Source: Alphaproteobacteria bacterium (GTDB lineage: Bacteria > Pseudomonadota > Alphaproteobacteria > Acetobacterales > Acetobacteraceae). Taken from it: 64,000 nt of DNA. The DNA lies in contig VGDM01000015.1 of the NCBI GenBank assembly GCA_016869715.1, positions 1-64,000 of the forward strand, in the 5' to 3' direction. Position 1 is the first letter of the stretch, and each line of letters begins with the position of its first letter. The notes under the pieces are model-generated. The model was given only the letters and a program-made list of their open reading frames with translations. It was not told the DNA's origin and did not search any database. Positions 19,236-23,154 of the stretch are shown here, in pieces. The position numbers were made by a program, and so were the translations under genes.

Positions 19236-20423
19236 TCAACGCCCAAAGGCGCGCCGCAACTCAATCGCCAGATCGGTCATTTCCCAGGTGAAGGTGCCCC
19301 TGGTGGTATCCGGTACGCGGCCGAAATGGCCATAGGCGCTGGTCGGCACATAGATCGGGCGGTTCAGCTTCAGATGTTCACGAATGCCGCGCGGGGAGAG
19401 ATTGACCATGCCGCCAATCACCTTCGCCAACTTCGCCTCATCCACATCCTTGCCCGTGCCATGCAGGTCGAAATAGACCGATAGCGGCTTGGATACGCCA
19501 ATAGCGTAGCTCAACTGAATGGTGCACTTATCCGCGAGGCCAGACGCCACGACATTCTTCGCGACATAGCGCGCGGCATAGGCCGCCGAGCGGTCCACCT
19601 TGGTCGGGTCCTTGCCGGAGAATGCGCCACCACCATGCGGCGCCGCCCCACCATAGGTATCCACGATGATCTTGCGCCCGGTCAGGCCGCAATCGCCATC
19701 CGGCCCGCCGATCACGAACTTGCCCGTGGGATTCACGTAAAATTCGCTATCCGGGCACATCCAGCCCTTTGGGAGCACGGCTTCCACAATCGGGCGCAGC
19801 AGGCGCTTGATGTCGGCCTGTTCCAAAGCTTCCTCATGCTGGGTGGAGACAACGATGGAAGTGGCCCCCACCGGCTTGCCATCCACATAGCGCAAGGTCA
19901 CCTGGCTTTTCGCATCCGGCAGCAGCCCGGCCACGGCGCTATCCTTGGCGCGGCGCAGCGTGCTGACATGGCGCAGGATTTCATGCGCGTAGTAAAGCGG
20001 CGCCGGCATCAATTCCGGCGTTTCGCGGCAGGCATAGCCGAACATGATGCCCTGGTCGCCCGCGCCTTCATCCTTATTGCCGGCAGCATCCACACCCTGG
20101 GCGATATGCGCCGATTGGGCATGCAAATGGCAGGCAATATCGGCGTGCCGCCAATGAAAGCCTTCCTGCTCATAGCCGATGTCGTGAATGGCAAGCCGCG
20201 CGAGATGGATCAGATATTCCGGGGTGATTTCCGCGGGGCCGCGCACTTCGCCCGCCAGCACCACCCGATTGGTGGTGACCAGCGTTTCGCATGCGACGCG
20301 GGCATAGGGATCGGCGGTCAGGAAGGCATCTAGCACGGTGTCTGAAATGCGGTCTGCCACCTTGTCCGGATGGCCTTCGGAAACGGATTCCGAGGTGAAA
20401 AGATATTCGCCCGTATCGCGCAT
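19236..20423 (-). CDS. metK: S-adenosylmethionine synthetase (methionine adenosyltransferase)
   Basis: [68 protein letters not shown]. Confidence 0.97.
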
Positions 20424-20561: not shown

Positions 20562-21617
20562 TCAACGCGGCGGCAGCACCCGGGCAGCGCGATAGCCTTC
20601 GATCTGGTCGGCAAACATGGCCCAGCTATCCCGGAAACCCGCAAAACCCGCCTGACGCGCCGCCGTCATGGAAGCCGTCACATCATAATCCATATTCAGC
20701 GCAAAATCGGCGAATTCCCAACTGGCGACGTGTTCGATGGGCAAAATCAACCCATGCCGGGCGCGTAATTTCTCCCAAATCGGGGCCTTGTCGGCCATCC
20801 AGTGCGCCATGGACAGTGTCCTGACGCCGCCCGGCGCCACACCAAATAGCCCGGCCAGATGGGGCCACATGTCGCACCAGCGGAAGGCATCGCCATTGGT
20901 GACATTAAAGGCACGGTTCGCCGCGCGCGGTTCGCCCAGCATCCACAGAATGGCCTCCGCCAGCAATGAGGCATCCGAGACCTCATGCAGCGCCGTGAAG
21001 GCGCCGGGCTTGCCGGGGAAGTCAAAAGCCACGCCCAATTCACGGCAAATCGTGGCATAGGCACCAAGGGTCGAGACCATGTTGCGGGCGCGGCCAGGTG
21101 CGACATCCAGCACGAAATTGGGCCGGCTCGCGGACCAGGACCAGGCTTTGCCGCGCTGGCGTTCGGCCACCATATCCTGCTGGTCATAGTAGAAATTGGG
21201 CGGCAGGTGTCGCGGGTCATCTTCGCGCGCCGGCGTCGGGAAGGGGCCGATATGCAGCCCATACCATTTGCCGCCATGGATCATGTGCAGGTGCTGAAAG
21301 CGCGGCAGTGATGCCTCGGCCGCGTCCAGCAGATTGCGCAGCATGGTAACATTGCCGGGCACATCTTCCACGCCGGTTTCGCCATGCGGCGCGCGGGAAG
21401 CGTAAACGATATGGGTAATGTCGGGCCGCTCCGCGATGGCGCGCGTGAGTGCCGGCCCATCCCAAAGATCGGCGGTGATCCAGGGGATGCCCGCGCCAGG
21501 ATCGCGCCGCGTCAGGCCAATTGGCGTGAAGCCAGGGTCGCTATGCGCGGCCTCGAGCACGCGACTTGCCGCCGCGCCGCTGGCGCCGACAATAAGGGTG
21601 ACGCGGGTATTTGCCAT
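20562..21617 (-). CDS. NAD(P)-dependent SDR / PRISE-like (iridoid synthase-type) oxidoreductase
   Basis: MANTRVTLIVGASGAAASRVLEAAHSDPGFTPIGLTRRDP; WSASRPNFVLDVAPGRARNMVSTLGAYATICRELGVAFDFPG. Confidence 0.85.
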   Translation of the reverse strand: MANTRVTLIVGASGAAASRVLEAAHSDPGFTPIGLTRRDPGAGIPWITADLWDGPALTRAIAERPDITHIVYASRAPHGETGVEDVPGNVTMLRNLLDAAEASLPRFQHLHMIHGGKWYGLHIGPFPTPAREDDPRHLPPNFYYDQQDMVAERQRGKAWSWSASRPNFVLDVAPGRARNMVSTLGAYATICRELGVAFDFPGKPGAFTALHEVSDASLLAEAILWMLGEPRAANRAFNVTNGDAFRWCDMWPHLAGLFGVAPGGVRTLSMAHWMADKAPIWEKLRARHGLILPIEHVASWEFADFALNMDYDVTASMTAARQAGFAGFRDSWAMFADQIEGYRAARVLPPR

Positions 21618-21735
21618 GGGCGTATCCTCCTGCGGGGATGAACCCATGGGCGCGGGCGCGATGCAAGCCACACGGCATTCTTGACCTGCGGGCGCATCAC
21701 GCCTTATGTAATCAATTATTGGTTACAGAACCAAT

Positions 21736-21818
21736 CCTCGCGATTTGTCCGGTCTTCTTGCGGCGAGGTTCCGAAAGGGCGTGGGTGGCGACACCCCCGA
21801 AAACAAACGCGCTAAAGG
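21736..21818 (+). promoter_or_regulatory. SAM-II (SAM-alpha) riboswitch upstream of metZ, with an extra hairpin in the linker
   Basis: P1 CCTCGC(21736-41)/GCGAGG(21763-68) closing loop GATTTGTCCGGTCTTCTTGCG (family hallmark GAUUU..CCG..UUGC); A-rich linker containing GGGTG-GCGA-CACCC hairpin; 3' pseudoknot strand CGCG(21808-11) able to pair with loop TGCG(21759-62); hallmark GCTAAAGG at 21811-21818; located directly 5' of an O-succinylhomoserine sulfhydrylase gene. Confidence 0.85.
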
Positions 21819-21948
21819 GCCGCGGGGTTATCATGCCCCGTTCCCGCTAGGGGCTGGACACAGCATTGTGTGAGAGGTCCCAGCCGTGCCGAAAATTTCT
21901 CGCCCCACCCGCCCCCTTCACTCAGCAGCGCAGCCTGGCGGCGCGCAA

Positions 21949-23154
21949 ATGATGGGCCATAACGGCGACCCCGTGCGCGCCCTTCGCCCCGCGACGCAGC
22001 TTGTGCGCGGCGGGCTCATGCGCTCCAATTTTGATGAGCTGGCGGAGGCGATGTATCTGACCTCGGGCTTTGTCTATGACAGCGCGGCCCAGGCGGAAGG
22101 CACCTTTGCGGGGACAGAAGCGCATTACCAATATTCGCGTTTCGGCAACCCGACCGTCAGCATGCTGGAAGCGCGCCTGGCGGCCCTGGAAGGCGCGGAA
22201 GCCTGCCGAGCGACGGCAACCGGCATGGCGGCGGTGCATTCCGCGATGCTGTCCCACTTGAAGGCAGGCGATCGCGTGGTGGCATCCCGCGCGCTGTTCG
22301 GGTCCTGCCATTGGATCGTCTCCACCCTGCTGCCGCGTTATGGCGTGGATACCGAATTCGTGGATGGCAGCGATCTGACGCAATGGTGCGCGGCCCTGTC
22401 GCGCCCCGCGACCATGGTGCTTTTGGAAACGCCATCCAACCCCATGCTGGAAATCGTTGACCTGCGCGCCGTGTGCGACTTGGCGCACAAGGCCGGCGCG
22501 CTGGTGGTGATGGATAATGTCTTCGCCACCCCCTTGCTGCAAAAGCCGATGAGCTTCGGCGTTGATATTGTTGTCTATTCCGCGACCAAGCATTTTGATG
22601 GCCAGGGCCGCGTTTTGGGCGGCTGTGTGATGGGGTCCAAGAAATGGGTAGATGAGGTGTTGCAGCCCTTCATCCGCAATACCGGCCCATCGATTAGTGC
22701 CTTCAATGCCTGGGTGATTCTGAAGGGGCTTGAAACCCTGCATCTGCGCGTGCCCGCCATGTGCCGCAGCGCTTCCGCCATTGCCGATATGCTCGCAGAA
22801 CGGGCCGAGGTTGCGCGCGTGCTCTACCCCTTCCGGGCGGACCATCCGCAGCAGAAGCTGGCCATGGCGCAAATGTCCGCCGGCGGCACGCTGGTGAGCT
22901 TTGACATCAAGGGCGGCAAGGAAGCCTGTTTCCGCTTCATGGATGCGCTGAAGCTGATTGATATCGCCAATAATCTTGGTGATGCGAAATCCATGGCGAC
23001 CCACCCGGCCACCACCACCCATATGCGGGTCGGTGCTGAGGAACGCGCGAAGCTTGGCATTACCGATGGCACGGTGCGGCTGTCCGTGGGGCTTGAGGAT
23101 GTGGCTGATCTGATTGACGATCTGGCCGAAGCGTTGGATGCTGCCACCGGTTGA
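21949..23154 (+). CDS. metZ: O-succinylhomoserine sulfhydrylase
   Basis: PATQLVRGGLMRSNFDELAEAMYLTSGFVYDSAAQAEGTFAG...YSRFGNPTV; PLP lysine region YSATKHFDGQGRVLGG. GTG at 21886 is an alternative upstream start. Confidence 0.94.
   Translation: MMGHNGDPVRALRPATQLVRGGLMRSNFDELAEAMYLTSGFVYDSAAQAEGTFAGTEAHYQYSRFGNPTVSMLEARLAALEGAEACRATATGMAAVHSAMLSHLKAGDRVVASRALFGSCHWIVSTLLPRYGVDTEFVDGSDLTQWCAALSRPATMVLLETPSNPMLEIVDLRAVCDLAHKAGALVVMDNVFATPLLQKPMSFGVDIVVYSATKHFDGQGRVLGGCVMGSKKWVDEVLQPFIRNTGPSISAFNAWVILKGLETLHLRVPAMCRSASAIADMLAERAEVARVLYPFRADHPQQKLAMAQMSAGGTLVSFDIKGGKEACFRFMDALKLIDIANNLGDAKSMATHPATTTHMRVGAEERAKLGITDGTVRLSVGLEDVADLIDDLAEALDAATG

Follow-up and report, generated by a model that had tools for sequence, protein, structure and literature searches.

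The window, by which is meant the whole 64,000-nt stretch of DNA analysed, carries the O-succinylhomoserine sulfhydrylase gene metZ on the forward strand (21886-23154, GTG start) and metK on the opposite strand (19236-20423). A sequence-only reading had placed a SAM-II riboswitch directly 5' of metZ, with metK nearby, and both gene assignments were borne out, the metZ product matching TIGR01325 with 567.5 bits (cut-off 510.05). The metZ promoter spans 21681-21709 of the forward strand and consists of a -35 element (TTGACC, 21681-21686), a 17-nt spacer and a -10 element (TTATGT, 21704-21709). It was not listed by a simple consensus scan because the -10 element is weak; TTGACC and the downstream AT element nonetheless hold their position in nearly all leaders of the genus. 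The RNA is predicted to start just 5' of a hairpin termed P0 (21718-21735).

The MetZ N terminus (encoded at 21886-22000) exceeds that of most sister species by about 22 amino acids (RPTRPLHSAAQPGGAQMMGHNGDPVRALRPATQ vs. RPTRPLRPATQ), and a similar extension occurs in two relatives (L021 and L034). The best plasmid matches of MetZ are from Roseomonas, with 81% and 75% identity. Four family members (L117, L118, L098 and L073) have a tRNA gene no more than about 200 nt from the SAM-II/metZ leader; Rfam found no tRNA gene in the window. One assembly (G025) contains two different SAM-II/metZ leaders (L019 and L041), each at a contig end, which may represent a second copy or mixed strains.

Scanning of the full window at Rfam gathering scores gave no match at all, either to the SAM-II family RF00521 (SAM_alpha) or to any other. 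In a permissive scan of the 601 bases from 21500 to 22100, RF00521 was the sole match, at 21727-21794 of the forward strand (26.7 bits, E-value 6e-4). The comparison with RF00521 suggested by the sequence-only reading thus recovers the element at the expected place, although under the gathering score of 36 bits, which is a search cut-off and not a biological feature. The alignment fits P1 and its loop and then fails at the inserted linker. The cut-off is missed because this linker carries two hairpins foreign to the model, rather than through any degradation of the core; compact relatives, likewise located before metZ, score 50-74 bits. Furthermore, 32 leaders, taken from the sister clade and from other genera but not from the window or its own clade, served to train a covariance model (R1). 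R1 matched 21736-21822 with 87.9 bits (E-value 5e-17, R1 E-values being rough), as the single match in the 64 kb at E-values up to 1, and the one further match in the 3.5-Mb genome was noise (E-value 0.78). The sub-threshold Rfam match, the held-out match, the genus-wide presence of the element before metZ and the compact, over-threshold SAM-II elements in most other genera of the family make it well supported that the metZ leader is a SAM-II homologue controlling metZ.

Each piece of the SAM-II aptamer previously listed for 21736-21818 of the forward strand was found at its position, and the functional leader reaches further, to the metZ start at 21886. The P1 hairpin (21736-21768; CCTCGC 21736-21741 with GCGAGG 21763-21768), which lies in both the RF00521 and the R1 matches, is paired in 99.5% of cells, with a C-G to G-C exchange in three sequences from other genera. 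It encloses the conserved loop L1 (21742-21762; GATTTGTCCGGTCTTCTTGCG), with the pattern GATTTG..CCGG..TTGCG. Two strands of this loop take part in the pseudoknot. The UGCG:CGCG pairing (21759-21762 with 21808-21811) that had been proposed as the pseudoknot exists as the short helix P2a/P1a, corresponding to the extra helix (P1a) proposed for SAM-II (PMC2258182). The main helix P2b, in which CGGUC (21750-21754) pairs with GGCCG (21818-21822), had gone unnamed. The stretch from the A-rich L3 strand to the 3' strand of P2b (21799-21822; GAAAACAAA) lies in the RF00521 and R1 matches, includes GCUAAA (21811-21816) and shows little or no variation across the genus; together, the A-rich linker and GCTAAAGG extend to 21818. 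Among 34 distinct genus leaders P2b is 100% paired, one pair showing a U-G/C-G change, and P2a/P1a is 100% paired and invariant. As judged from these alignments, the P2 pairing in the genus is a matter of conservation rather than covariation, there being nearly no variation.

Between P1 and the A-rich L3 strand sits an insert of about 30 extra nucleotides. The GGGTG-GCGA-CACCC hairpin that had been noted in the linker is present at 21783-21796, but it is the second of two. It is preceded by P3a (UCC-GAAA-GGG, 21770-21779), the fold of which is predicted in nearly all relatives; 94.6% of its cells are paired in other lineages, mostly as C-G with U-G changes. The stem around the second hairpin (P3b, 21780-21799) shows two-sided changes at 7 of its 8 pairs within the genus and again in other lineages. 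For the whole structure the covariation score is 0.28 vs. 0.12 and 0.30 vs. 0.13 in shuffled alignments, a level reached by none of 500 shuffles, and sliding the partner strand abolishes the signal. The GNRA cap that had been taken as a feature of the linker hairpin is not defining: the relatives carry GCGA, GCAA, GAAA, UUCG, CACG and other loops, and, given this variability, a specific tertiary contact of the GNRA type was rejected. The linker hairpins are most likely a structural insert that leaves the SAM-contacting sequence and the A-rich L3 strand untouched.

Further hairpins flank the aptamer. P0 is a 7-bp hairpin that abuts P1 near the predicted 5' end of the RNA, and its stems vary while pairing is kept (AUUGGUU/AACCAAU, AUCGGUU/AACCGAU, AUCAGUU/AACUGAU, GGCG/CGCC and GGUG/CACC). 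The mean arm energy of P0 is -6.22 kcal/mol, vs. -4.35 (sd 0.25) kcal/mol with swapped arms. Downstream, P4 (CGGGGU...GCCCCG, 21823-21840) occurs in relatives as the same hairpin with other sequence, at -10.18 kcal/mol vs. -7.16 (sd 0.34) kcal/mol with swapped arms. It is followed by P5, a small hairpin (CCC-GCUA-GGG, 21843-21852) whose CCC/GGG arms are kept while its loops vary across relatives. Comparative evidence of this kind establishes P0, P3b and P4, together with the aptamer core, at the level of sequence. In two leaders of genus g36 (L072 and L074), a hairpin is present after P1, just before GGCUAAAGAGGCC, with the canonical L3 strand GAAACAAGCGCG intact; this would be a second, independent insertion site in SAM-II.

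Downstream of the aptamer lies the expression platform, on which the sequence-only reading was silent and which is more unusual than the aptamer. It contains a conserved strand that can pair with L1. This antisequestor strand (21850-21859; GGGGCUGGAC) forms 10 bp with L1 at 21747-21756, with an energy of -15.4 that was equalled or bettered by one of 200 dinucleotide shuffles. In unconstrained folding of the window leader, L1 lies on the antisequestor with a probability of about 0.95-0.98 for the first six pairs. Across the family, 66 leaders with the loop GUCCGG or GUCUGG have a strand after P2 that can pair with the loop, and GGCCGGAC is found in most of them. The antisequestor duplex averages -17.80 in 62 distinct leaders vs. 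-11.95 (sd 0.25) in dinucleotide shuffles, and 85.5% of these leaders have a run of at least 8 contiguous antisequestor-loop pairs (9.7% of shuffles). The strand lies mostly 22-29 nt 5' of the start codon. In two leaders of genus g55 with the loop GUCUGG, the loop-strand pairing is no better than in shuffles. As L1 is almost invariant, the loop-antisequestor pairing is recognised in these sequences by complementarity together with a constant position, and compensatory changes are all but absent.

The same strand can also fold onto the ribosome-binding region, giving a sequestor hairpin (21850-21885) that includes the Shine-Dalgarno sequence GAGAGG (21872-21877). This fold is found in most relatives, with a mean arm energy in 56 leaders of -14.27, vs. 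-11.46 (sd 0.38) for shuffled and -12.76 (sd 0.28) for arm-swapped sequences. The pairing is thus evident across the set; in the window by itself the hairpin is no better than chance, being equalled by 22 of 100 shuffles. Taken as a whole, the window leader has an ordinary thermodynamic z-score (-0.68), which was given no weight. In some genera, among them g55 (L077 and L080) and g71 (L088), either the antisequestor or the sequestor pairing is weak. The antisequestor and sequestor pairings are mutually exclusive because both use 21850-21859.

We consider, with a probability of roughly 0.77, that the metZ leader is a SAM-II off-switch with an enlarged two-hairpin linker and a translational antisequestor/sequestor platform. 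L1 would have two competing partners, the P2b strand GGCCG (21818-21822) and the antisequestor (21850-21859). P1 and P2 would be transcribed first and, with SAM present, L1 would be held in P2b. The antisequestor would emerge later and, being free, would pair with the Shine-Dalgarno region of metZ and turn translation off. In the absence of SAM, L1 would capture the antisequestor, 22-28 nt 5' of the start codon, over 8-10 bp and the ribosome-binding site would stay open. We infer SAM binding, this order of events, the off sign of the switch and the role of the insert from the arrangement of the pairings.

A further pairing bears on the SAM-free state. In nested folding of the window on-state, P1 opens and its freed 5' strand pairs near the Shine-Dalgarno sequence. 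Family-wide, the P1 5' strand pairs with the last 24 nt before the start at -7.40 vs. -5.85 (sd 0.20) for shuffled sequences; in the window, CUCGCG (21736-21742) is complementary to UGUGAG at the metZ Shine-Dalgarno sequence (21870-21877). This could reflect either a genuine third interaction or the anti-Shine-Dalgarno-like CCUC within P1. In folding models, the partial pairing of the Shine-Dalgarno sequence to the P1 5' strand would weaken the switch, unless P1 remains closed and the L1-antisequestor pairing forms as a pseudoknot. A P1 closed without SAM would allow such a pseudoknot. Published probing of one SAM-II riboswitch has indicated that P1 stays formed without SAM while L1 and P2 are open, and that the L1/P2 structure forms on SAM binding (PMC10907184).

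Other outputs were weighed against strand exchange. Direct occlusion would place the Shine-Dalgarno sequence in the 3' strand of P2 (AAAGGG, 21814-21819), serving either an AUG at 21833 or the distant metZ start. AAAGGG does precede this AUG, which opens a five-codon reading frame (AUG CCC CGU UCC CGC UAG), and in Sinorhizobium meliloti metA the Shine-Dalgarno sequence of the riboswitch serves a start 74 nt downstream (PMC9373788). However, AAACGGCCG, the counterpart in the sister clade and in other genera, lacks a purine run of the Shine-Dalgarno type, neither the AUG nor the stop is kept, and nearly all leaders have a normal Shine-Dalgarno sequence (GAGG/AAGG) directly 5' of metZ, which makes direct occlusion unlikely. 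The reading frame at 21833-21850 was likewise set aside as an upstream peptide, since relatives preserve neither its start nor its stop; an ATG/GTG at the start position is kept only in part of the window's clade. Transcriptional control through an intrinsic terminator is the usual platform of SAM-II and the dominant one in PMC2258182, and eight class-level relatives outside the family (L001-L008) mostly have a hairpin and U-run after P2. It is nevertheless very unlikely here, given that 21500-22000 contains no terminator-like site and that, of the family leaders checked, just three, all from genus g55, contain a run of five T. Rho-dependent termination may occur at the metZ leader.

It could also be argued that the element is a decayed relic whose pairing persists while SAM is no longer sensed, as its RF00521 score under the Rfam cut-off might suggest. 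Decay would not preserve an invariant core beside a variable insert, whereas the 34 genus leaders combine a freely varying insert with GATTTG, CTTGC, GCTAAA and both halves of P2 that are constant or almost so; such a relic is hardly credible. Finally, the complementarity between L1 and the antisequestor might be a by-product of similar GC-rich sequence, with a constitutive hairpin at the ribosome-binding site. The antisequestor strand does resemble the 3' strand of P2b, and the fixed L1 allows little covariation. This explanation appears improbable, since in many genera the GGCCGGAC motif is conserved with constant spacing to the start, in compact as well as extended leaders, and the loop-antisequestor pairing lies far outside dinucleotide shuffles.

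The distribution of the element was examined by searching RF00521 in 60 relatives, in 299 genomes of the order and in 30 chosen genomes with weak matches. In a 2014 survey, Rhizobiales and Rhodobacterales were the only orders listed with SAM_alpha (PMC4239095), and the reach of SAM-II is widened by matches at E-values of 0.01 or better in 270 of the 299 genomes of the window's order, many of them under the Rfam cut-off. Nearly all members of the genus have the element, always under the cut-off, and at every locus that was read it precedes metZ. Compact SAM-II (up to 73.8 bits) is carried by most of the family's other genera. Extended forms occur in g29, g33, g34, g60, g62, g71, g73, g79, g82 and g83, so that searches place an extended element before metZ in at least ten further genera of the family. 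Outside the family, the extended-form model yields short compact matches only (55-58 nt), and L001-L008 also have compact linkers. The strand-exchange platform is probably older than the linker insert, because the compact leaders of two Roseomonas plasmids and of some further family members (L044 and L060) carry a loop-complementary strand as well. In compact leaders of several genera (L042-L071), a CAGGACUUCCACGGCC-like motif is conserved after P4, in which CUUCCA can pair with the Shine-Dalgarno sequence UGGAGG and CGGCC with the loop; it is perhaps another sequestor design.

The SAM-II core, as these leaders indicate, can accommodate large structured inserts, and the leaders provide a checkable extension of the RF00521 seed. 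The metZ leader also offers a simple system for studying how a pseudoknot loop serves both ligand binding and ribosome access. The literature search found no paper linking SAM-II with Acetobacteraceae or Roseomonas and no earlier report of this variant, an absence that does not prove novelty. Known SAM-II outputs are terminators or a Shine-Dalgarno sequence inside P2 (PMC2258182, PMC9373788, PMC10907184), and sequestor/antisequestor off-switches are an accepted general riboswitch platform (PMC2258182). The aptamer class and the switch logic are thus both known, while their combination appears undescribed in the literature searched. It seems fairly likely that this family lineage exchanged both known SAM-II outputs for strand exchange, with the pseudoknot loop acting as the antisequestor of a remote hairpin at the ribosome-binding site, and that this platform was then overlaid by a multi-hairpin insert between P1 and P2, so that in at least ten genera the switches escape the Rfam cut-off.

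The metZ leader shares with SAM-II as first described (RF00521, metA, SAM_alpha; Corbino et al., 2005, PMC1273637) P1, the conserved loop, the P2 pseudoknot, the A-rich linker and GCUAAA, as well as a position upstream of a methionine gene in an alphaproteobacterium. It differs in having two linker hairpins, P0 before P1 and no terminator. The SAM-II riboswitches of S. meliloti metZ and metA belong to the same aptamer class and serve the same or a neighbouring pathway gene, but act through a terminator (metZ) or a Shine-Dalgarno sequence within the riboswitch at a distance from the start (metA; PMC9373788), whereas here a strand would be exchanged between the loop and the ribosome-binding site. 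Compact SAM-II elements on the plasmids of Roseomonas haemaphysalidis (NZ_CP061178, 50.6 bits with RF00521) and R. marmotae (NZ_CP061095, 61.3 bits) likewise precede metZ and have a downstream strand, GGCCGGGU, complementary to the loop, without the linker hairpins present in the window. With translational riboswitches of the antisequestor/sequestor type, the leader would share mutually exclusive antisequestor and RBS-sequestering hairpins and an off logic (PMC2258182); in the metZ leader, the partner of the antisequestor would be the pseudoknot-forming loop of the SAM-II aptamer itself.
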